Under the pieces are notes generated by a model. The model was not told where the DNA came from. It saw only the letters and a list, made by a program, of their open reading frames with translations, and did no database searches. From positions 1-48,437 of the forward strand of contig REEK01000088.1 of assembly GCA_007695115.1 (NCBI GenBank): 48,437 bases of DNA, given 5' to 3'. Shown here in pieces: positions 6,374 through 24,784 of this stretch; position 1 is the stretch's first letter, and every line of letters begins with the position of its first letter. The stretch is from Sphaerobacteraceae bacterium (GTDB taxonomy: Bacteria > Chloroflexota > Chloroflexia > Thermomicrobiales > Thermomicrobiaceae). The translations under genes and the position numbers were made by a program.

Positions 6374-6713
6374 CAGATATATACCGTTTTCCAAAAATCA
6401 ATCCTTGCACGAGGCGATCCGGTAGCGTAATCAATTACCCGCAATATTGCGCATCATACTCTCCGGCACCTGACTATCGCAGTGCAAGCCGCACAGGCGG
6501 AGTCCGCAGACACACCGTGCAGGCGACGCATGTCGCTGCAGTCGGGCCAGTACCGGCGCGGAAAGGAGTACATCAGGCCATCGAAACGCCGACTATCAGG
6601 ATGTTCCAGGTGTTCGGATCTGGAGAGACAGGGATCAATTCTCGGGGCAGTTGAGGAAAGACCGGACACCTCCGCGAGATCAACTTATCGAATTCAGCGT
6701 TAGGAACCAGAGA

Positions 6714-8945
6714 ATGACAATCGATGAAGTTCCTCGTTCAGTGCGGCTACTCGCCTCAGAGTCGAACGCAAGACTTACCCGTCGTGATGTACTGAAGCGA
6801 GGCGCTGCGCTCGGGCTTGCAGCCCCGGCAGTCTCGGCGCTACTTGCCGCCTGCGAGGGAGTCGGCGACGACGACGAAGAAGTCGCCGCAGAAGAAATCG
6901 ACGATGACGTCGAGGAAGATCTCGACGAGGCCGATGACACCGAAGAAGACGAAGAAGACGAAGAACCGTCCGATGATGATTCCGACCCGATGGATGTGGC
7001 TCCAGAAGACGTCGAGATTGGCTTGCACCTGATCGGAGAACTCGAAGGGCCTGAGGTCGTCGATGAGATGCCGGACTCATTCAGCGAGGCGCCGGAACTG
7101 GCTGAACTCGTCGAGGCAGGTGAACTTCCGCCGGTCGAGGAGCGCATTGGCTCCCAGCCGATGGTGATTCGTCCAGTCCATGAGATTGGTCAGTATGGAG
7201 GCACCTGGCGACGCGCGAAGCTTGGTCCCGGAGACACCCCACAGGGCAACCGGATCATAACCAGCAGCGGCAGGGTACTGTTCTGGGATTACACCGCCAC
7301 AGAAATGACTCCGTGCCTGGCTCGAGACTGGGAAATGTCAGATGATGGCCGCGAGTTCACGTTTCATCTTCGTGAAGGAATGCGCTGGTCAGACGGAGAG
7401 CCATTTACGTCGGCTGACTTCATGTTCTGGTTCGAGCACATTTACGGAAACGAAGAGTTCACTCCGGTCAAGAACCCGTCCACAGCCATCAACGGTGAAC
7501 AGGGGTACATGGAGACCGATGGAGACTACATAGTCCGCTGGGTCTTCCCGGAGCCATATCCAATGTTCGACTCCATGCTGGCCAGTTCATCGCCCATCGG
7601 CGGGCCGCTGCCCGCAATTTTCGCTCCGGCTCACTATCTCGAACAGTTCCACCCGGAATTCATCGGCGCTGATGAAGCCGATCAGATCGCGCAGGACGCA
7701 GAGTACGACAACTGGACGACCTACTTCGAATTCCTCAATAACTGGGCCCTGAATCCTGATCGTCCAGTCATCTTTGCATGGAAGACCGTCAACCCGATGA
7801 ACGAGCCGAACTGGATCATGGAGCGCAACCCGTACTTCTGGGCAGTCGACACCGAAGGCAATCAGCTTCCGTACATCGACTCCATCGTCATGCGCAACGC
7901 GGAAGATATTGAAGTCATAACGCTGCGAGCAATGGCGGGTGAGATCGACTTCCAGCAACGACACATCGATCTCGGCGCACTCCCGGTACTCCTGGAGAAC
8001 CAGGAAGGTGGCGATTACTCGATTCACCTCGATCCAGCACTGTGGGGCGCAGACGCCATGGTGATGTGCAACATGTCCTGGCGTGGCGAAGAAGAAGGAG
8101 ACGATGAGATCGTCGATCTCATCAACGAACCTGACTTCCGTCGTGCACTTTCACTGGGCATTGACCGAGATCAACTCAATGAAGCGCTCTGGCTTGGGCT
8201 GGGCACCCCCGGATCCTGTATCCCATCTCCAGAAAGTCCACAAAACCCGGGAGAAGACGAGTGGCGAACCCGATGGTCCACGCTCGATCCCGATCAGGCG
8301 AATGAGCTACTCGATGATCTGGGCCTGACCGAACGCGATGACGAGGGATACCGACTCCGCCGCGACAATGGCGAGCGATTGCGAATTCGCCTCTCGGCTT
8401 CCGGCGCCCGGCTGAACTGGCCAGCCGTCTGCGAGATGATCGTCTTTCAGCTTGCTGAAAACATCGGTATTCAGATCGATTTCCAGGAGCTCGAGGATAG
8501 CCTCTGGTGGGAGCGCAATCAGGCCAACGAGCTCCAGTTGTCGATGTGGTTCAACGACGGCTCCGAGAACATGGATATCTCGCCGAACATGATGCTGCCG
8601 GTCGCGCACGTCTGGTCCGGAGTAGGTCCGCAACATGCCACCTGGGCCATGACGGATGGAGAAAGCGGTATCGAACCGCCTGAGGGTATGAAGCGCGCAC
8701 AGGATATCTGGTTCTCTGCCGCTGGAATGGAGCTCGACGAGCGCAACGAAGCGATGCAGGAGATCTGGAAAATCATCGTTGACGAACAATGGGCAATTGG
8801 CACTGTGGGGCTATCGCCGATCGCAATTGGCGTGCGAATTGTCAACAACAACGTCGGCAACAACCCTTCCCGGCATATCAACGGGAAGCAAGTCGAGACA
8901 CCAAGCGTCTCGCACCCGGCGACCCTCTTCTTTCATCAGAACTAG
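6714..8945 (+). CDS. Family-5 ABC transporter solute-binding protein, Tat-lipoprotein, paralogue 1
   Basis: This 743-residue exported protein starts with a twin-arginine signal (LTRRDVLKRG, Arg23-Arg24), a hydrophobic stretch and a lipobox ending in LLAAC (Cys47). It should be a Tat-translocated lipoprotein on the outer face of the membrane. About sixty residues of mostly Asp/Glu follow before the binding domain, which opens with HEIGQYGGTWRR and has the SBP_bac_5 pattern (WxFxLREGMRWSDGEPFTSADF). Family members bind peptides, nickel, oligosaccharides or other solutes. Here it serves the DppBCDF-like genes downstream. ATG 6714, preceded by AGGA, is preferred over 6651. It is the most divergent of three tandem copies: for example it lacks the GGGHATRGR segment of copies 2 and 3. 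Confidence 0.9.
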   Translation: MTIDEVPRSVRLLASESNARLTRRDVLKRGAALGLAAPAVSALLAACEGVGDDDEEVAAEEIDDDVEEDLDEADDTEEDEEDEEPSDDDSDPMDVAPEDVEIGLHLIGELEGPEVVDEMPDSFSEAPELAELVEAGELPPVEERIGSQPMVIRPVHEIGQYGGTWRRAKLGPGDTPQGNRIITSSGRVLFWDYTATEMTPCLARDWEMSDDGREFTFHLREGMRWSDGEPFTSADFMFWFEHIYGNEEFTPVKNPSTAINGEQGYMETDGDYIVRWVFPEPYPMFDSMLASSSPIGGPLPAIFAPAHYLEQFHPEFIGADEADQIAQDAEYDNWTTYFEFLNNWALNPDRPVIFAWKTVNPMNEPNWIMERNPYFWAVDTEGNQLPYIDSIVMRNAEDIEVITLRAMAGEIDFQQRHIDLGALPVLLENQEGGDYSIHLDPALWGADAMVMCNMSWRGEEEGDDEIVDLINEPDFRRALSLGIDRDQLNEALWLGLGTPGSCIPSPESPQNPGEDEWRTRWSTLDPDQANELLDDLGLTERDDEGYRLRRDNGERLRIRLSASGARLNWPAVCEMIVFQLAENIGIQIDFQELEDSLWWERNQANELQLSMWFNDGSENMDISPNMMLPVAHVWSGVGPQHATWAMTDGESGIEPPEGMKRAQDIWFSAAGMELDERNEAMQEIWKIIVDEQWAIGTVGLSPIAIGVRIVNNNVGNNPSRHINGKQVETPSVSHPATLFFHQN

Positions 8946-8957
8946 GTGACGCCGGCA

Positions 8958-8991
8958 GAGTGGACGTGGCGGAGAACCCCCACGTCCACTC
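8958..8991. terminator. 12-bp perfect hairpin after solute-binding protein 1
   Basis: The arms GAGTGGACGTGG (8958-8969) and CCACGTCCACTC (8980-8991) flank a ten-base loop, thirteen bases past the stop. No T-run follows. It is probably the 3' end or a stabilising structure of the mRNA. Confidence 0.6.
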
Positions 8992-9199
8992 GTTCCATTA
9001 CAGTCTCGCAACCTAACAGCGCGCGCGACGTATCGTTCACGCAATATTTCTTGCTCATCTCTGCCGCACTGGGATACTCATCCGCTCCATAGAACTGAAA
9101 CTGCTGGAATGCGAAGAACACCTGCGCATCACACGTAATAGCTTGCCAATCCGAATCGCGAACGGTGCAGGTTTCTGCATGAATTGTCCCTGAAAGGGC

Positions 9200-9228
9200 T
9201 TGACAGAATCTCGGCAGCATATGATAGT
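9200..9228 (+). promoter_or_regulatory. Sigma70-like promoter for solute-binding protein 2
   Basis: A perfect TTGACA (9200-9205), a 17-base spacer and GATAGT (9223-9228, four of six). It lies upstream of the second binding-protein gene, giving that gene its own transcription start. Confidence 0.55.
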
Positions 9229-9372
9229 GTGCTAGATACAGTCGAGCCAAAATCAATATCGATAGCGCAATTGGAAATGCGCAACAACTGAAACTAAAAC
9301 GTACGCAGTTTACACATCTTACAACAAATCTTGCATATTTGCCTACTAACGCGCTTCGTATACATGTCTGAC

Positions 9373-9386
9373 GCACAACGTTGTGC
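9373..9386. promoter_or_regulatory. 14-bp perfect palindrome, candidate operator
   Basis: GCACAACGTTGTGC is fully self-complementary and lies in the leader of solute-binding protein 2. Size and symmetry fit a dimeric regulator site. No cognate regulator gene is seen in the window. Confidence 0.35.
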
Positions 9387-9397
9387 AGAAAGAAATC

Positions 9398-9411
9398 GAT
9401 CAAGGTTGATC
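9398..9411. promoter_or_regulatory. Second inverted repeat, candidate operator
   Basis: GATCAA-GG-TTGATC lies eleven bases after the GCACAAC palindrome, so the two symmetrical elements form a tight pair in the same leader. Confidence 0.3.
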
Positions 9412-9719
9412 TGGTCCTGGAGCCGCAATCACCCGCAAGCGCACATGATGATCGAGCCCTCGATTCGACGGTTCGGCTTTGTCATGCAAAGCAGTCTCAC
9501 CGCATTGCGTGCTGACACGATCAACCTGCACAGAACATAGCGGTTGAGGAGCCCGGGGCAACATCGAGAGGAGATTACCAGAGGAGGAGCTGATTCATTT
9601 CTGACTGTCGTTCGTAACGGATCCCGGCACCGGTCTGGAAAACGTGGCACTTCTGGAGAAACCGGTCTCAGGTTCTGATGCGAATCCTATTTGCCAGTTT
9701 CATGTTAGGGAATCACGAG

Positions 9720-11942
9720 ATGGGGATCAAAGATCTATCGGACATCACGCAGGTTATCGGTTCAGTAACCACCGCAAAGCTGACACGCCGGGACGTGATC
9801 AAGCGCGGGGCGGCGCTCGGACTGGCCGTACCAACTGTCTCTGCTTTGCTGGCAGCCTGCGAAGGAGTTGATGAGGCCGACGACGATGAAGTTGCAGCCG
9901 AAGAAACAGACGATACAGACGATGATGAAGAAGTTGACGAGCCGGATACTGACGATGCCGAAGATGCTGATGATGACCCGATGGACGTCGACGAAGACGA
10001 CGTCGAAATTGGATCCGATCTGATCGGCGAACTCGAAGGCCCGGTGCTGGTCGACGAAATGCCTGACTCCTTCAACGAAGCGCCAGATCTTGCCGAAATG
10101 GTCGAAGCAGGCGATCTGCCACCAGTTGAAGAACGCATCGGCAGCCACCCGGCCGTATTCCAGCCGGTTCATGAGATCGGTGAATATGGCGGAACCTGGC
10201 GTCGAGCCTTCACAGGCCCTGGCGACAACGAAAACGGCAACCGGATCATGTCCAGTGACAAACCGCTGTTCTGGGACTACACCGGTAGCGAGATTCAGCC
10301 ATCGCTGGCCAGAGACTGGGAAGTCACTGATGAAGGTCGCGTAACAACGCTCTACCTGCGGGAAGGCATGCACTGGTCAGACGGCCACCCGTTTACCTCC
10401 GCGGACTTCATGTGGTGGTTCGAGCACATGTACGAGAACGATGAGCTCACCCCAGTCAAGAACCCGGAAACCGCTATCAACGGCCAGCAGGGCACCATGG
10501 AAGCGGACGGTGACTACACCATCCACTTCATCTTCCCGGAGCCGTATCCTATGTTCCCGGACGTCCTGGCCGGATCAACCATGATCGGCGGCGGCCACGC
10601 TACTCGCGGTCGAACGCTCATGGGTGCCTATGCACCGGGACACTACCTGGAGCAGTTCCACCCGGAATTCATCGGTGACGATGAAGCCGAGCAGATGGCT
10701 CAGGACGCTGAGTACGACAACTGGGTCACCTACTTCCAGTTCCTCAATGACTGGAGCCTGAACCCGGATCTCCCGGTTGTGATGCCGTGGAAGACCGTCA
10801 ACCCGATCAACGAGCCTAACTGGGTTCTCGAGCGCAACCCGTACTACTGGGCCGTCGATACCGATGGCAACCAGCTTCCGTATATCGACACGATCATCAT
10901 GCGGAACGCTGAAGACCTCGAAGTCATCACGCTCCGAGCGATCGCTGGCGAGATCGACAAGCAGGGTCGTCACATGGACATCTCTGCACTGCCGGTCTTC
11001 CTCCAGAACCAGGAAGATGGCGACTACACCGTCCGGCTCGACCGTGGGCTGTACGGCAGTGACGCCAACATCAACATCAACATGTCTTACCGTGGTGATG
11101 ATGAAATCGCGGATCTGTTCAACACCAAGGACTTCCGGCATGCGCTGGCGCTCGCTGTCGAGCGAGACCAGCTCAATGAAGCACTCTGGCTCGGGCTGGG
11201 AACTCCTGGTTCTCCGGTTCCAGCCGATCACCTGCCACAGAACCCCGGTCCGGAATGGCGTGAAAAGTGGTCGGTCTTCGATGCGGATCAGGCAAACGAG
11301 TTGCTGGATGGCATCGGACTGGAGGAGCGCGACAACGAAGGCTACCGACTGCGGCGGGATAACGGAGAGCGTCTCCGTATCCAGATGGTAGCTGTCGGCG
11401 GTGCGTTCATCGACTGGCCGGCCGTTGGCGAGATGATCGCCTTCCAGGTCGGCGAGAACATCGGTGTTCAGCTCGACCTGCAGGAGCAGGAACGAAGTCT
11501 GTGGGATGAGCGTGTGACGGCCAACGAACACCAGATCTCAATCTGGATGAACGACGGCAGCGAGCATCTGTTCATCTATCCGCATCATGCTCTTCCAACC
11601 ACAACGCTGAACCCGCAAATGGGTCCCCACCATGCTCTGTGGTGGCAGACAGACGGCGCCGAAGGCGTCGAGCCGCCCGAAGAGATGAAGCGGGCGCAGG
11701 ATCTGTTCAGCTCGGCATTCTCAATTGAGGACGAGGCCGAACGAGATGCGATCGGCCAGGAGATCTGGGAAATCCTCGTCGAGGAGCAGTACAGCATCGG
11801 TACAGTTGGTCTCTCGCCAGCCGCAATGGGTGTTCGCATTGTGAAGAATCACATGGGCAACATTCCGGAGCAGCAGGCAAACGGACAGCACGTGCGCACG
11901 CCATGCACGTCACAACCACCGACGTTCTTTATTCGAAGCTAG
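9720..11942 (+). CDS. Family-5 ABC transporter solute-binding protein, Tat-lipoprotein, paralogue 2
   Basis: This 740-residue protein has the same architecture as its neighbours. A Tat motif LTRRDVIKRG (Arg23-Arg24) and lipobox LLAAC (Cys47) are followed by an Asp/Glu-rich linker of about fifty residues, then an SBP_bac_5 domain starting at HEIGEYGGTWRR. It is very close to paralogue 3, sharing GNRIMSSDKPLFWDYTGSE, and differs more from paralogue 1. It should be tethered to the outer membrane leaflet and hand solute to the permeases at 14437-16667. ATG 9720 is preferred over ATG 9678 because TTAGGGA lies eight bases upstream and the N-terminus then matches paralogue 1 in length. It has its own promoter and is followed by a hairpin, so it may be expressed independently. 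Confidence 0.9.
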   Translation: MGIKDLSDITQVIGSVTTAKLTRRDVIKRGAALGLAVPTVSALLAACEGVDEADDDEVAAEETDDTDDDEEVDEPDTDDAEDADDDPMDVDEDDVEIGSDLIGELEGPVLVDEMPDSFNEAPDLAEMVEAGDLPPVEERIGSHPAVFQPVHEIGEYGGTWRRAFTGPGDNENGNRIMSSDKPLFWDYTGSEIQPSLARDWEVTDEGRVTTLYLREGMHWSDGHPFTSADFMWWFEHMYENDELTPVKNPETAINGQQGTMEADGDYTIHFIFPEPYPMFPDVLAGSTMIGGGHATRGRTLMGAYAPGHYLEQFHPEFIGDDEAEQMAQDAEYDNWVTYFQFLNDWSLNPDLPVVMPWKTVNPINEPNWVLERNPYYWAVDTDGNQLPYIDTIIMRNAEDLEVITLRAIAGEIDKQGRHMDISALPVFLQNQEDGDYTVRLDRGLYGSDANININMSYRGDDEIADLFNTKDFRHALALAVERDQLNEALWLGLGTPGSPVPADHLPQNPGPEWREKWSVFDADQANELLDGIGLEERDNEGYRLRRDNGERLRIQMVAVGGAFIDWPAVGEMIAFQVGENIGVQLDLQEQERSLWDERVTANEHQISIWMNDGSEHLFIYPHHALPTTTLNPQMGPHHALWWQTDGAEGVEPPEEMKRAQDLFSSAFSIEDEAERDAIGQEIWEILVEEQYSIGTVGLSPAAMGVRIVKNHMGNIPEQQANGQHVRTPCTSQPPTFFIRS

Positions 11943-11957
11943 TGTCACGCACCGGCT

Positions 11958-11991
11958 CGATACAGGGCAACCAACTGGCTGCTCTGTATCG
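11958..11991. terminator. 15-bp imperfect hairpin after solute-binding protein 2
   Basis: Arms 11958-11972 and 11977-11991 pair at fourteen of fifteen positions, counting one G-U, around a four-base loop. No T-run follows. Confidence 0.55.
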
Positions 11992-12144
11992 GGTCATCTG
12001 GCAGCGACTGGAGAAGAGAGGAGGAGCACCGGCCGGGTCATAGTCGATCATTGGTCCTAGACGCAGCAGCAGACCTTGTGGAATCTGCACGCCGCGATGT
12101 AGCTAAATTGACATAATTTACTGCCATCAGAAAGAGTAGTTGCT

Positions 12145-14364
12145 GTGGCCGACATACAACTTCCGCAAATAACCCGGTCGAATCGTTTGACCCGACGAGA
12201 TGTGCTCAAGCGTGGTGCTGCACTGGGCCTCGCAATCCCGACGGTCTCAGCGCTGCTCGCGGCGTGCGAGGGGCCTGAAGACGCAGACGATGAAGACGTC
12301 GCCGCTGAAGAACCCGATACTGACGACGAGGTGGAAGAAGTCGAAGAAGTCGAAGAACCTGATGACGATGCCGACGAGGTCGAAGCCGATGATGATCCCA
12401 TGGACGTTGATGTCGAGGACGTCGACATTGGCTCTGATCTGATCGGCGAACTCGAAGGACCAGAAGTTGTCGACGAGATGCCGGACTCTTTCAATGAGTC
12501 ACCCGAGCTCGCAGAGATGGTCGAAGCCGGCGAACTTCCCCCTGTCGAAGAGCGCATTGGCTCACAGCCAATGGTAGTCAGACCCGTGCACGAAATAGGT
12601 GAGTACGGAGGTACCTGGCGCCGAGCCTTCACCGGCCCGGGAGACCATGAAAACGGCAACCGGATCATGTCCAGCGATAAGCCACTCTTCTGGGATTACA
12701 CCGGAAGTGAGGTCAAGCCATCACTAGCCCGTGAGTGGGAAGTGTCAGACGAAGGTCGAGTGACGACCCTTCATCTCCGTGAAGGCATGCACTGGTCAGA
12801 CGGCGAGCCGTTCACCTCGGCAGACTTCATGTGGTGGTTCGATCACATCTACGAAAACTCGGATCTGACCGCGACCAAGAATCCTGAGACCGCCATTAAT
12901 GGCCAGCAGGGTTACATCGAAGCAGATGGTGACTACACTGTCCGCTTTGTGTTCCCGGAGCCGTACCCGATGTTTGTGGACGTCCTTGCAGGTTCCACAC
13001 AAATCGGTGGTGGCCACGCGACCAGAGGCCGCGCAATGATGGGTGCGTATGCTCCCGGTCATTACCTCGAACAGTTTCACCCGGACTTTGTCGGAGAAGA
13101 CGAGGCACAGCAAATCGCTGAAGACGCTGGTTTCGACAACTGGGTGACCTACTTCGAGTTTCTCAATGACTGGTCGCTCAACGTTGATCTGCCAACCGTA
13201 ACCCCCTGGAAGACTGTCAGCCCGATCAACGAGCCCAACTGGGTACTCGAGCGTAATCCGTACTACTGGGCCGTCGACACCGAGGGCAATCAACTGCCGT
13301 ACATCGACACGATCATCATGCGGAACGCTGAAGACCTCGAAGTCGTCACGCTGCGAGCGATCGCCGGTGAGATCGACAAACAGGGTCGGCATATGGAACT
13401 GCCGGCACTTCCAGTGTTTCTCGAGAACCAGGAGGCCGGTGACTACACAGTTCGACTCGACCGCGGCCTCTATGGCGGTGATGCGAATTTCAGCTTCAAC
13501 ATGTCCTACCGCGGGGACGAAGGCCTTGCAGACCTGATGAACAATCGGGATTTCCGGCGCGCGATCTCACTGGGGATCCAGAGAGATCAGCTTAATGAGG
13601 CGCTATGGCTGGGGCTGGGGACACCCGGTTCACCGGTTCCAGCGGATCACATGCCGCAGAACCCCGGACCGGAGTGGCGAGACCGTTGGTCCACCTTTGA
13701 TCCCGATCAGGCGAACGAACTGCTGGACGGAATTGGCCTCGACGAACGTGATGCTGAGGGTTACCGACTTCGACCAGACAACGGAGAACGACTTCGGATC
13801 AGAGTAGCGGCAGTCGGAGGAGCCTTTATTGACTGGCCAGCGGTAAGCGAAATGGTTGCCTTCCAGGTCGGAGAAAATGTCGGCGTTCAACTCGACCTTC
13901 AGGAACTCGAACGCAGCCTTTTCTGGGAGCGAGTCGCTGGCAACGAACTGGAAATCGCTGTCTGGATGAACGACGGCTCCGAGCACCTGTTCATCTATCC
14001 GCAACACGCACTACCAGCAACGTTTATCAATGCTCCGATGGGGTCAGCTCACGCAATCTGGTGGCAGACTGACGGCGCCGAGGGTGTCGAGCCTCCGGAC
14101 GAAATGAAGCGTGCTCAAGATCTCTTCGCGTCTGCATTCGGAGTTGAATCAGATGAAGAACGCGATGAGATTGCCAAGGAGATCTGGGAGCTTCTCGTCG
14201 AAGAACAGTGGAGTGTCGGAACGGTCGGTCTGTCACCGGCCGCAATGGGACTCCGCATCGTAGGCAACCATATGGGCAACATCCCATCCCAGCAGGCAAA
14301 CGGTCAGCACGTTCGAACACCGTGTTCGTCGCACCCGCCGACGTTCTTCATTCGCAGCTCGTAG
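12145..14364 (+). CDS. Family-5 ABC transporter solute-binding protein, Tat-lipoprotein, paralogue 3
   Basis: This 739-residue protein has a Tat motif (Arg17-Arg18 of LTRRDVLKRG), lipobox cysteine Cys41 and an Asp/Glu/Val-rich linker. The SBP_bac_5 domain follows and is nearly collinear with paralogue 2. Long identical blocks such as NEPNWVLERNPYYWAVDT suggest a fairly recent duplication or gene conversion. It begins with GTG and only a weak AAAGAG ribosome site. A TTGACA at 12108 has no matching -10, so I could not assign a promoter; it may depend on read-through. It is the copy next to the permeases, separated by a strong hairpin at 14376-14409. The ligand is unknown. Catabolic neighbours suggest sugar acids or glycosides as readily as peptides. 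Confidence 0.9.
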   Translation: MADIQLPQITRSNRLTRRDVLKRGAALGLAIPTVSALLAACEGPEDADDEDVAAEEPDTDDEVEEVEEVEEPDDDADEVEADDDPMDVDVEDVDIGSDLIGELEGPEVVDEMPDSFNESPELAEMVEAGELPPVEERIGSQPMVVRPVHEIGEYGGTWRRAFTGPGDHENGNRIMSSDKPLFWDYTGSEVKPSLAREWEVSDEGRVTTLHLREGMHWSDGEPFTSADFMWWFDHIYENSDLTATKNPETAINGQQGYIEADGDYTVRFVFPEPYPMFVDVLAGSTQIGGGHATRGRAMMGAYAPGHYLEQFHPDFVGEDEAQQIAEDAGFDNWVTYFEFLNDWSLNVDLPTVTPWKTVSPINEPNWVLERNPYYWAVDTEGNQLPYIDTIIMRNAEDLEVVTLRAIAGEIDKQGRHMELPALPVFLENQEAGDYTVRLDRGLYGGDANFSFNMSYRGDEGLADLMNNRDFRRAISLGIQRDQLNEALWLGLGTPGSPVPADHMPQNPGPEWRDRWSTFDPDQANELLDGIGLDERDAEGYRLRPDNGERLRIRVAAVGGAFIDWPAVSEMVAFQVGENVGVQLDLQELERSLFWERVAGNELEIAVWMNDGSEHLFIYPQHALPATFINAPMGSAHAIWWQTDGAEGVEPPDEMKRAQDLFASAFGVESDEERDEIAKEIWELLVEEQWSVGTVGLSPAAMGLRIVGNHMGNIPSQQANGQHVRTPCSSHPPTFFIRSS

Positions 14365-14375
14365 GTGGGGTAGTT

Positions 14376-14409
14376 TCGCTCTGCCGGAATAGTCATTCCG
14401 GCAGAGCGA
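14376..14409. other. 15-bp perfect hairpin between binding protein 3 and permeases
   Basis: The arms TCGCTCTGCCGGAAT and its complement flank a four-base loop. No T-run follows and the next ribosome site begins 13 bases later. Its position recalls the intercistronic structures that keep binding-protein mRNA more abundant than permease mRNA in other import operons. That role is inference. Confidence 0.65.
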
Positions 14410-18850: not shown

Positions 18851-18879
18851 TTGCGTTCCAATTTTGGAGCCACGCGCGT

Positions 18880-18922
18880 ATCAATCCGCCCGGCAGCCAT
18901 TGCAGTTGCCGGGCGGATTGGT
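18880..18922. terminator. GC-rich hairpin at the end of the importer operon
   Basis: Fourteen perfect pairs (18882-18895 with 18907-18920), extended by a U-G and an A-U pair, flank an eleven-base loop. No T-run follows. Its position after the last operon gene supports a terminator or mRNA 3'-end role. Confidence 0.65.
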
Positions 18923-18980
18923 ATGCTGACCGCGACAACCACGGATACTTACTCGGCAACATCAGAACACGGGGTAACCC

Positions 18981-20405
18981 ATGGAGAAACCAGACGTTTC
19001 GGTCCTGCGGCAATTGACGGAATCAGCCGCCAGGAAAGCTCAGTCAATCGGCGCAGAAGTGCTGGCGAGCCATGCACAGGATATAGACCCAATTGATCCA
19101 GTCGAACTCTTCGTTGCGGCAGTATCGGTCACATCAGACCGATGGTACTGGCGCTGTCCGGATTCCGGACGATCGATTGTCAGCCTCGGAATCCTTACCG
19201 GGACCACACCGCCGCGCAACGTTCGGTTTCAGGAGTCAAGTCGCAACTTCACCCAGACGGCCGGCTCGGCAACTGTTCAGGACGATACGGGAACAGACCA
19301 GTATGGCCCGATTCTGCACGCTGGCTTCTCGTTCGATCCGCGTTACACCCAGGACAGGCTGGTCTGGCAAGGATTTCCGTCCACGTACCTGCTGACTCCA
19401 CGCATGACCGTAGTCTGTGACGGAGACCGTTGTGTGCTGATTCAGAACATACTGGCGAGTGCTGCTGTGCAGCCGGACGCTCTGATCACGGCGGCTGAAG
19501 AGTTCAACTCGTCACTGGTGGACGCTATGCAGTCACTGAGCGAGCACAACCTCATCATCGATGAGGTCGAGCCAGACGACACGAACGCATCCGAGTTGCG
19601 GTCATTCGTCAGAGCCGTCACCCGTGCAGAATCGGCCGTGCAACGTGGTGAATTCGATGTCCTGAACATCGCTCGACGACGCAAGCTGACCACGGGCGGT
19701 CTCTACCGGATTCGACGGGCGCTCTCTTATCTGGCTCAAGGCTACCCCGAGGATGTACTGGTAGCGGTTGGTCGTCATGGTTCGACGTTTATCGGTCGAA
19801 GCAGCGGCTATCTGATACAGCAGGACAACCAGCAGATCGTCGCGGAGACGCGAAAAGGGCTGACTCGTCGCGGTGATGACCCCGATCTGGACAGTGCGCT
19901 TGCCGAGCAACTCCTCAACACACCCGACCAGGTCGAACACCATGAACTCTGCGTCGATCATCTGTATGAGGCGATGGACTCGACGCTGGCCAATGTGGAG
20001 GCTTCTGACGAGCCGGAACTCCGAAGCACCCGGCACGTTCATCATCTCTATTCAAACGTACAGGGAGAGCTGGAAGAGCGCCAGACCGTCTTCGATCTGC
20101 TCGGCGCGCTCCACCCGATCGTCGAATCCAGCGGTATGCCAGTCGACGAAGCCTTCGAGTTCATTCACGACCGCGAACAGGTCGATCGTGGGTGGTTCTC
20201 GGCGCCGATGGGGTGGATGGATCTCAATGGGAACAGTCAGATTATCGCTACGGAAAGCGCGGCGGTGGTTCGCGCCCCGGTGATGCAGCAACAGCGGGCT
20301 TACATCTTCTCGATCGGCACCGTTTTCTCGGGATCAGACCCTGAAGATCTCATCGCGATGACGGACCAGGAGATCAACGAGTACCGAATAGCGCTGTCGC
20401 AGTAG
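18981..20405 (+). CDS. MenF-type isochorismate synthase homologue lacking key catalytic residues (probable pseudoenzyme)
   Basis: This 474-residue protein aligns over its whole length with MenF/EntC-type isochorismate synthases. It has the N-terminal DRWYWRCPDSG and GPILHAGFSFDP blocks, then the chorismate-binding part with ALHPIVESSGMP, DREQVDRGWFSAPMGW and SGSDP. The active site is degraded. The general-base Lys (EntC K147) aligns with Val227. The general-acid Glu of GASPE (E197) aligns with Gly276 in GRSSG. The substrate Arg of VTIRCA (R347) aligns with Glu425, and the second magnesium Glu (E376) is replaced near Leu457-Met460. Only the Glu of the E-H motif (Glu319; EntC E241) remains. Normal isochorismate synthesis is unlikely. 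EntC numbering is from memory. The gene is intact and lies alone between importer and photolyase. Confidence 0.8.
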   Translation: MEKPDVSVLRQLTESAARKAQSIGAEVLASHAQDIDPIDPVELFVAAVSVTSDRWYWRCPDSGRSIVSLGILTGTTPPRNVRFQESSRNFTQTAGSATVQDDTGTDQYGPILHAGFSFDPRYTQDRLVWQGFPSTYLLTPRMTVVCDGDRCVLIQNILASAAVQPDALITAAEEFNSSLVDAMQSLSEHNLIIDEVEPDDTNASELRSFVRAVTRAESAVQRGEFDVLNIARRRKLTTGGLYRIRRALSYLAQGYPEDVLVAVGRHGSTFIGRSSGYLIQQDNQQIVAETRKGLTRRGDDPDLDSALAEQLLNTPDQVEHHELCVDHLYEAMDSTLANVEASDEPELRSTRHVHHLYSNVQGELEERQTVFDLLGALHPIVESSGMPVDEAFEFIHDREQVDRGWFSAPMGWMDLNGNSQIIATESAAVVRAPVMQQQRAYIFSIGTVFSGSDPEDLIAMTDQEINEYRIALSQ

Positions 20406-20617: not shown

Positions 20618-22033
20618 ATGGCAACTCGCACCGCAATCTGGTGGATCCGCCGTGATCAGCGGCTGGTCGATAACGCGGCGCTCCATGCCGCGATGAGTAA
20701 CGCTGATCAGATCGTCCCGCTCTTCATTCTGGACGATCAACTCCTCTCTTCGCGCTACTCAAGTGACAAGCGAACCGCATTCATGTTCGCTGGGCTTCGA
20801 TCGCTCGACGAGGACTTGCGCGCGATCGGCGGATCGCTGATCGTCCGACGCGGCAATCCGATCGAGGTGCTGCGGCAGGTCATTCAGGAGACGTCGGCTG
20901 CCGGGATCTTTGCCGAGCACGATTTCTCACCCTACGCCACTCGCCGGGACAGCAACGTCGTCAACCAACTCCCGCTCACGCTCCTCAGTCAGCCATCAGT
21001 AGCTCACCCAGACGATGTCTTGAAGAAAGACGGATCACCCTATACGGTCTATACCCCCTACTCAAAAGCGTGGAAGGCGAGCAATCCCGATGCGCCCCAC
21101 CTGGAACCGGCACCAGAGCGGATAACCGTACCGGAGATCGAATCACACTCCTTGCCCGAGACACCCAAACTACCGGAGTCGGTTCCCTTCGAGGCCGGAT
21201 ACGCCGCCGCACACCACCGGTTGAAGCAGTTCACCGAGGGCAATGACGCGCCGGTCTTCACCTATGAAGAGCAACGCAATCGAATCGATCTCGACGCCAC
21301 GTCCAGAATGTCACCGTATCTGCGCTTCGGGATGATCTCGCCGCGCGAGGCTATCGCGGCGGCAATGCGCGCGCTCGACAACGCACCATCCAGGGATGCT
21401 CGTCACAGCGCCGAGACCTGGCTCAACGAACTGATCTGGCGAGAATTCTACGTCGCCATCCTCCACCACTTCCCCTACGTTCGCACGATTGAATTTCAGG
21501 ATCAGTATCGTGGGATGCACTGGATCAACGATACGGAAGATCGCTCCGCATGGGAGAACGCCGAGACCGGCTATCCGATCGTCGATGCCTGTATTCGGCA
21601 GCTACACAGTGAAGGCTGGATGCACAATCGCGGGCGAATGATTACGGCGTCGTTCCTTGTCAAACACCTGCTGGTCGACTGGCGAGCTGGTGAAGAGCAT
21701 TTCATGCAACATCTTCTGGACGGAGATCCCGCATCGAACAACGGAGGCTGGCAGTGGACGGCGGGCACCGGAACCGATGCTGCCCCGTACTTCCGTGTCT
21801 TCAATCCCATACTGCAGAGCCGGCGGCACGATCCGTCCGCTACCTTCATCCGCAAGTGGATTCCGGAACTGACCAACGTACCTGACCGTTTCATCCATGA
21901 ACCATGGACGATGTCACAGAGCGACCAGCAGGAATCCGGTTGCGCTATCGGTGCGGACTACCCGGAACCGATCGTCGAGCACACGTTTGCTCGCCAGCGC
22001 GCGCTGGCAGCCTACAAACAATCAGACGGCTGA
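20618..22033 (+). CDS. phr: Deoxyribodipyrimidine photolyase (class I, cryptochrome/photolyase family)
   Basis: This 471-residue protein has the antenna-binding Rossmann domain (IWWIRRDQRLVDNAAL) and the C-terminal FAD domain. Class I signatures are LNELIWREFYVAILHHFP, WMHNRGRMITASFLVKHL and GGWQWTAGTGTDAAPYFRV, the last containing the asparagine/FAD region and one of the electron-transfer tryptophans. It repairs UV-induced cyclobutane dimers with blue light. ATG 20618 fits the family N-terminus. The gap before it (20406-20617) has no clear promoter. Its last 22 bases overlap the 3' end of the convergent channel gene. Repair versus cryptochrome signalling cannot be decided from sequence alone, but the bacterial type is usually a repair enzyme. 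Confidence 0.93.
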   Translation: MATRTAIWWIRRDQRLVDNAALHAAMSNADQIVPLFILDDQLLSSRYSSDKRTAFMFAGLRSLDEDLRAIGGSLIVRRGNPIEVLRQVIQETSAAGIFAEHDFSPYATRRDSNVVNQLPLTLLSQPSVAHPDDVLKKDGSPYTVYTPYSKAWKASNPDAPHLEPAPERITVPEIESHSLPETPKLPESVPFEAGYAAAHHRLKQFTEGNDAPVFTYEEQRNRIDLDATSRMSPYLRFGMISPREAIAAAMRALDNAPSRDARHSAETWLNELIWREFYVAILHHFPYVRTIEFQDQYRGMHWINDTEDRSAWENAETGYPIVDACIRQLHSEGWMHNRGRMITASFLVKHLLVDWRAGEEHFMQHLLDGDPASNNGGWQWTAGTGTDAAPYFRVFNPILQSRRHDPSATFIRKWIPELTNVPDRFIHEPWTMSQSDQQESGCAIGADYPEPIVEHTFARQRALAAYKQSDG

Positions 22034-22737
22034 TCTCGGGCGGTCCGAGCTCGCCAGCGGATCACAAATTTCTCGGCCGGCAGCAGCAGGATCCACAGGA
22101 GGATCGTCCAGTTCACCAGCACCAGGGCAAGTGGGATAGAGATCAGGAATCCAATTACCAGGGTCGTGCCGCGCAGCATCTCCGTCCGATACTGATAAGG
22201 CGACCACTGCTCCTTGAGGAGACCGGCACGATAGATGTGTCGGTGAATCCAGAGATCGACGAGATTCAACAGCGCCAGCACTGATGCATACACCATGTAG
22301 ACAACTGCTTCGAAAGGATAATCCCCCTGAAGACGTTGAACGAAGGGGATCATCGCAACCAGGCTCAGGTAGCCGAAATTCACCCACATGAGCCGCCCAT
22401 CGATCTTCTGCACCCCGGCGAAGATCTCGTAATGCGAAAACCAGAACAGTGCGATAATCCCGACGCTCACGAGGAACGCAACCAGCATCGGTGTGACGTT
22501 CAGCAACTCGGAGTAGAGATCACTGGTGTCCAGCCCTGGTGGAATTTCCAGCGACAGAACCAGCAACGTCAGTGCAATGGCGAAGACGCCATCACTCAGA
22601 TTCAGTATTCGACTGAACTCCACCGGATTCTGGGTACGGTCGTAGTATCGACTCTCGTTTCCATCCGGATGATCCGAACTCCCGGCACGTCGCTGCCGGG
22701 TTCGACGATGTCCACGATCGTAGCCCTGACGCGCCAT
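22012..22737 (-). CDS. TMEM175-family (DUF1211) potassium channel-like membrane protein
   Basis: This 241-residue protein has a basic N-terminal tail of about 40 residues. The first helix then carries the family motif LSDGVFAIALTLLVLSLEIP, equivalent to the conserved RxxxFSDGVFAIAITLL of TMEM175 channels. Five further hydrophobic segments follow, giving the six-helix repeat of bacterial TMEM175. Bacterial members are tetrameric K+ leak channels. The gene converges on the photolyase and the coding ends overlap by 22 bases. An AGGAG lies almost against ATG 22737, so the start may be misplaced by a few codons, although no better in-frame start is visible. Confidence 0.85.
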   Translation of the reverse strand: MARQGYDRGHRRTRQRRAGSSDHPDGNESRYYDRTQNPVEFSRILNLSDGVFAIALTLLVLSLEIPPGLDTSDLYSELLNVTPMLVAFLVSVGIIALFWFSHYEIFAGVQKIDGRLMWVNFGYLSLVAMIPFVQRLQGDYPFEAVVYMVYASVLALLNLVDLWIHRHIYRAGLLKEQWSPYQYRTEMLRGTTLVIGFLISIPLALVLVNWTILLWILLLPAEKFVIRWRARTARDQPSDCL

Positions 22738-23994: not shown

Positions 23995-24093
23995 CCGTTT
24001 TCGACTCTTCCCTGTTTAACAACTGCCTCAGATCAGCCATCAAAGATACGTAAGGCAGCAAGATTAGTAAGGTTTACTGTGCGAACGAATGAG

Positions 24094-24103
24094 TGTACGT
24101 ACA
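24094..24103. promoter_or_regulatory. TGTACGTACA palindrome upstream of ATC-hydrolase-like gene
   Basis: This ten-base perfect palindrome lies about 125 bases before ATG 24230. The identical sequence occurs inside the bactofilin promoter at 32059-32068. It is a possible shared operator. Chance occurrence is not excluded. Confidence 0.25.
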
Positions 24104-24229
24104 TATCTATCGCTCAACATCAATCATTCTGGTTTCGCTGTTCCCATAGAGAATCCTGAAGCTCACACCGCTCATGGTATGGTGCAATTAGCGGATAATC
24201 TACGCAACCAGAGACTGGGAGAATACATC

Positions 24230-24784
24230 ATGGAGAACGACGATCAGCGAGACCACAGCGATGCAGCCCGTCTGAACCAGATCGGTGTGATCAACCGGAG
24301 AGAGATCGAAGCCCGGATCCTGGAGCCGATCCTCGAAGCGATGGTACAGGAGTTCGGCGATCGGGCAAGGGTAGAAGGTGTCGCTGCTGACACGATCATT
24401 GAACTGGCTCGGAAACAGGGCAATGAGCTGGCCGACGAACTCGGCGGGCGCTCACTCCACCACTTCCGGGATTCGATGAAGTACTGGATTCAGGATAACG
24501 CGCTGGAGATCGAGGTGTTGGAGCTCAACGACGAGCAGTTCGATTACAATGTCACACGCTGTCGCTACGCCGAGATGTATCGCGCGCTCGGCATGCAGGA
24601 CAAGGGAGCACTGCTCTCCTGCAACCGGGATTTCTCGCTCATCGAAGGGTTCGCCCCGGACGTCGAACTCACCAGAACCCAGACCATCATGCAGGGTGCC
24701 TCGTTCTGCGACTTCCGCTATCGGAAGAAGCCGGCCCAGCCCACCGAACACGACACCAGCGTGACAGCGGAGCGGGAAGACTAG
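24230..24784 (+). CDS. L-2-amino-thiazoline-4-carboxylate hydrolase-like protein
   Basis: This 184-residue protein matches the ATC hydrolase family (PF14196). The hallmark C-terminal part contains VTRCRYAEMYRALG, LLSCNRDFSLIEGFAPD and RTQTIMQGASFCDFRY, with conserved Cys residues in TRCRYAEMY, LSCNRD and SFCDFRY. Characterised members open the thiazoline ring of ATC on the way to L-cysteine. Many homologues occur where that chemistry is unproven. ATG 24230 was chosen because it follows GGGAGAATAC; longer in-frame starts give a non-conserved extension. It is convergent with the dipeptidase gene, 22 bases apart, with a small hairpin (CCACC-TC-GGTGG) between. Confidence 0.8.
   Translation: MENDDQRDHSDAARLNQIGVINRREIEARILEPILEAMVQEFGDRARVEGVAADTIIELARKQGNELADELGGRSLHHFRDSMKYWIQDNALEIEVLELNDEQFDYNVTRCRYAEMYRALGMQDKGALLSCNRDFSLIEGFAPDVELTRTQTIMQGASFCDFRYRKKPAQPTEHDTSVTAERED

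Follow-up and report, generated by a model that had tools for sequence, protein, structure and literature searches.

The window analysed here is a stretch of 48,437 nucleotides that forms one contig (C142) of a Thermomicrobiaceae genome of 3.68 Mb, 98.5% complete. On its forward strand lies an uninterrupted ORF with native codon usage, encoding a full-length homolog of the isochorismate synthase (ICS) MenF, so that the gene is intact, as the original prediction had held. It is preceded by an oppBCDF-type transporter operon and followed by a photolyase gene. The features of the locus are:

18981..20405, + strand: intact gene for a 474-residue MenF/ICS paralogue, assigned as catalytically dead on the basis of the ORF, family matches, alignment and dN/dS.
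18981..19595, + strand: domain of the MenF type at the N-terminus (residues 1-205); the two species that carry it give a dN/dS of 0.154.
19602..20348, + strand: C-terminal Chorismate_bind domain (residues 208-456) by Pfam; dN/dS of the C-terminal part (206-474), 0.061.
18851..18980, + strand: intergenic leader of 130 bp between oppF and the paralogue, 98.5% identical between the two species.
18876..18926, + strand: hairpin of 22 bp within this leader, with a fold z of -5.45 and no T tract.

The leader is better conserved between the two species than the variant gene (92.7%) or oppF (92.5%). Its hairpin is very stable, unique in the genome and conserved in the congener, and is probably the end of the opp transcript or an attenuator, which may in turn set expression of the paralogue. 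No credible Rfam match was found at the locus. Other strong hairpins stand right after stop codons at 2792-2819, 8958-8991 and 14376-14409, possibly as the way in which transcripts end in this genome, or as mRNA stabilisers. Elsewhere in the window, three tandem genes for oligopeptide-type substrate-binding proteins with very acidic N-terminal linkers (6651-14364) precede one opp permease/ATPase set, and a TMEM175-type potassium channel gene (22012-22737, - strand) and an ATC-hydrolase-family gene (24089-24784, + strand) lie close to the locus.

The variant matched the Pfam Chorismate_bind model above cut-off (6e-40) and a home-made ICS profile at 1.4e-90. Against the NCBIfam ICS model PRK07054, it aligned over residues 6-472 (8.9e-66), but its score of 223 of 475 bits was far under the cut-off; that against TIGR00543 (ICS) was likewise below the curated cut-off (148 of 225 bits), and the pabB model gave 56 of 328 bits.

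Catalysis by ICS involves a general base Lys, a general acid Glu and a Mg ion with two essential Glu residues (PMC11444293). The variant was aligned with MAFFT to 37 MenF/EntC/TrpE/PabB proteins, including E. coli EntC, MenF, TrpE and PabB, and a profile HMM was used as a second method, which gave high posterior values at the general-base and general-acid sites. The roles of EntC residues other than the base, the acid and the Mg-ligand pair are presumed here. The positions of interest, all on the + strand, are:

19659..19661: Val227, where the general base would be (EntC K147, MenF K190), by MAFFT and profile HMM.
19806..19808: Gly276, where the general acid would be (EntC E197, MenF E240), by MAFFT and profile HMM.
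19854..19856: Lys292, where EntC has Ala (A213), by alignment; Lys is also found here in E. coli PabB.
19938..19940: Mg-ligand Glu (EntC E241) replaced by His320, by MAFFT and profile HMM.
20043..20045: His355, a retained family-invariant His (EntC H276), by alignment.
20253..20267: five-residue insertion E-S-A-A-V (425-429), containing Glu425, ahead of the substrate Arg, by profile HMM alignment.
20271..20273: Arg431, which fits the substrate carboxylate Arg (EntC R347) best, by MAFFT and profile HMM with moderate alignment confidence.
20358..20360: second Mg-ligand Glu (EntC E376) replaced by Met460, by MAFFT.
20370..20372: Glu464 in place of an invariant Lys (EntC K380), by MAFFT.

Both methods placed Val227 and Gly276 where the general base and general acid had been predicted to be lost. 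The prediction that one Mg-ligand Glu is missing was right as to the loss and too low as to the number, both being gone. The substrate Arg, said to be replaced by Glu425, is probably retained as Arg431: both methods aligned EntC R347 to Arg431 and Glu425 fell inside the insertion, so that its assignment to the substrate-Arg position is unsupported. The posterior value for Arg431 in the profile HMM is moderate, and one pairwise phmmer alignment set Ser426 at this site. MAFFT further showed replacement of E373 by L457 and of K237 by D316 (EntC numbering first), the A-G-x-G-I loop reads S-I-G-T-V, and LHPTPAVGG has become LHPIVESSG, while the motifs LHP, RGW and GSDP, expected to persist at the level of the fold, are all present.

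Equivalents of E197, E241, E373, E376 and K380 are present in 37/37 comparison proteins, in which the base position holds Lys, or Gln in TrpE/PabB. By our own count, 20 columns are identical in all 37 proteins; the variant keeps ten of these (EntC G214, H276, L277, G306, P308, E320, R324, G332, R347 and S368), mostly structural positions plus the pocket His and Arg, and loses the other ten (P196, E197, K237, E241, A360, G361, G363, E373, E376 and K380). The variant retains 28 of the 59 positions that are invariant among ICS proteins and has replaced the other 31, indicating that the loss is broad and extends beyond the catalytic residues. E. coli MenF is more diverged from the MenF of this genome than the variant is (27% against 33% identity), yet has none of the variant's residue losses, so overall divergence alone is insufficient to explain them. 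A structure prediction from a three-sequence alignment reached a pLDDT of only 32 and was not used; the reading of the pocket therefore rests on sequence.

Outside the genome of the window, the sole orthologue was found in a congener (G002; Thermomicrobiaceae bacterium isolate CSSed162cmB_603, contig SLFF01000030.1), with 95% identity; the isolate name hints at a soda-lake origin. Searches of the order (61 genomes), the class (158 genomes) and the phylum (400 genomes, evenly sampled) detected no further orthologue, a scan of GTDB contigs returned nothing beyond this congener, and scans of viral contigs for the variant or ICS proteins gave no usable full-length ICS sequences. The variant was also not found in the congeners G001, G003 and G004, a result made uncertain by contig edges and completeness: the orthologous oppF of G003 reaches a contig edge, the photolyase match of G001 lies at one, and G004 is only 70% complete. 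The predicted clade of homologs with the same substitutions thus exists, limited to two sampled genomes of one genus. In both, oppF lies upstream of the variant, and DNA identity is 93.3% over 3133 bp; the G002 contig stops before the downstream gene, a 91% relative of which is on another contig.

The two variant genes differ at 104 bases, 78 at third codon positions and 18 and 8 at positions 1 and 2, respectively, and both reading frames are free of frameshifts and stops. Nei-Gojobori counting gave a dN/dS of 0.094 (dS 0.26), lower in the C-terminal than in the N-terminal part (values above), and canonical MenF of the same two genomes gave 0.076. None of the 22 amino-acid differences between the orthologues falls at the base, acid, Mg or K380 positions; the replacements at 227, 276, 320, 460 and 464 are identical in the congener, and residue 316 (EntC K237) is Asp in one orthologue and Glu in the other. 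Because the congener shares the replacements, sequencing or assembly error is ruled out, and a dN/dS this low over 104 base differences is not drift in a dead gene. The variant is under purifying selection in its present form and is not a decaying pseudogene.

In phylogenetic trees, the variant pair grouped with the MenF of the genus with support of 100/99. The second tree placed the pair beside, not inside, the MenF crown of the genus, on a branch of 2.37 changes per site, where the sister MenF stem measures 0.33. Given long-branch effects, it is uncertain whether the pair truly joins within this crown or next to it. Grouping with the genus's MenF on so long a branch indicates duplication, a burst of change and then constraint.

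The genome encodes three proteins with a Chorismate_bind domain, namely TrpE, MenF and the variant. The gene trpG adjoins trpE, and no separate PabB was found in the genome. The second, canonical menF that the original prediction had suggested seeking is on another contig (C162), and its product has every catalytic residue. It belongs to a complete men operon (L057 2574-11633) with the order TetR-menF-menD-menH-menB-menA-menC-menE, in which MenD was confirmed by a family model and the gene names other than menF and menD come from reading the translations. Its first gene, for the TetR-family regulator, overlaps the menF start. Given this complete operon and its canonical MenF, the variant, which adjoins the transporter operon and photolyase gene on a different contig, is not required for isochorismate, and the possibility that it fills the gap of a missing menF is ruled out. 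A futalosine route is unsupported, the mqnA-type match being below cut-off.

Several explanations other than a maintained non-catalytic protein were weighed. That the variant is an active ICS with its catalytic residues supplied from other positions would agree with its closest family models and full-length alignment, but in neither alignment method did a Lys, a Glu or a Mg ligand fall where one is expected, and these residues are kept in every ICS compared; we regard this as highly improbable. The variant is almost certainly not an ICS. It is just as improbable that it is a pseudogene in decay that happens to be undisrupted: the loss of catalytic residues and the very restricted distribution would fit, but the low dN/dS, the absence of frameshifts and stops in either species and the conserved leader rule it out from the divergence of the two species onward.

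The main rival is a neofunctionalised enzyme that would act on another carboxylated substrate, in a different reaction that needs no Mg. It draws on the charged residues gained in the pocket (Arg273, Arg291, Lys292, His320, Glu382 and Glu464), on the probable retention of the carboxylate Arg and the conserved His, and on a history in which a burst of change gave way to strong constraint, most of all in the C-terminal part; Lys292 also sits where PabB has a Lys. No catalytic set is recognisable in the variant, though, and no neighbouring pathway suggests a substrate, and we consider a new enzyme unlikely. PabB (aminodeoxychorismate synthase component 1) combines the Lys at its PIKGT position with an acid Glu and Mg ligands, of which the variant has only the Lys, so that a PabB-like activity via Lys292 is ruled out. 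A further rival, in line with the chorismate-binding protein of the original prediction, is a chorismate or isochorismate sensor or sink that would bind the metabolite without converting it. Retention of Arg431 and His355 and the tighter constraint on the C-terminal part are consistent with this, but both Mg ligands and the GxGI and TPAVGG loops are gone, and Mg acts in the catalytic site of the family; in plant ICS1, it coordinates two essential glutamates and gate closure (PMC11444293). With both Mg ligands lost, classical Mg-dependent chorismate binding is unlikely, though the probable substrate Arg and His355 remain, and we think this proposal quite unlikely to hold.

The reading we favour, with a probability of roughly 0.55, is that the variant is a pseudoenzyme derived from menF, a non-catalytic paralogue that works as a folded part, either as a protein partner or as a ligand-responsive regulator. 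That the protein is maintained but probably non-catalytic, as originally predicted, is borne out by the purifying selection, by the replacement of the catalytic set and by the presence of a canonical copy in the same genome. In this scenario, menF would have been duplicated in one Thermomicrobiaceae lineage, a burst of change would have stripped the general base, the general acid, both Mg ligands and the loops that cradle chorismate, and the changed copy would then have been fixed as a non-catalytic paralogue. Lacking base, acid and metal site, it should not isomerise chorismate by the known mechanism, and the maintained constraint points to some other function. By analogy with prozymes, it may pair with the true MenF or with another enzyme of the men pathway or of chorismate metabolism and set its activity or stability. 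Alternatively, it may sense a carboxylate ligand via Arg431 together with the basic residues gained (Arg291, Lys292 and His320) and relay the signal to a partner. A partner or ligand-responsive regulatory role is favoured because dead paralogues that regulate their active relatives are documented (PMC5201418, PMC3663545) and the activity of MenF and MenD forms a point of control over DHNA in Lactococcus (PMC12421875). Two points weigh against this reading: the gene lies beside the opp transporter and photolyase genes, apart from the contig of the men operon, and the variant is known from just two genomes. Tentatively, and with less confidence, we suggest that the variant could represent a new class of the chorismate-binding MST superfamily, a lineage-specific non-catalytic MenF paralogue that would regulate menaquinone or chorismate metabolism through protein contact or Mg-independent ligand sensing.

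Among open-access papers, we found no precedent for a maintained, catalytically dead ICS. The MST enzymes (MenF, EntC, TrpE, PabB and salicylate synthases) are a textbook case in which few residues set the reaction outcome on one fold. The variant offers a natural experiment on the capacity of this fold without its chemistry, and is a possible new control point of menaquinone (vitamin-K2) synthesis.

Compared to known systems, the variant resembles MenF/ICS proteins (TIGR00543, PRK07054; E. coli MenF and EntC) in its full-length architecture, its Chorismate_bind domain, its best family match and its clustering with the genus's own MenF; unlike them, it carries replacements at the general base, at the general acid, at both Mg ligands and in the active-site loops, and scores under the ICS cut-offs. 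PHYLLO of plants contains a truncated MenF module, a non-catalytic MenF relic that has lost the chorismate-binding domain by truncation, whereas the variant is of full length with replacements. In the trypanosome AdoMetDC prozyme (PMC5201418) and the dead deoxyhypusine synthase paralogue (PMC3663545), an enzyme was likewise duplicated, one copy was stripped of catalysis and both were retained; these are unrelated eukaryotic enzymes for which interaction with the partner is proven, whereas for the variant it is proposed.
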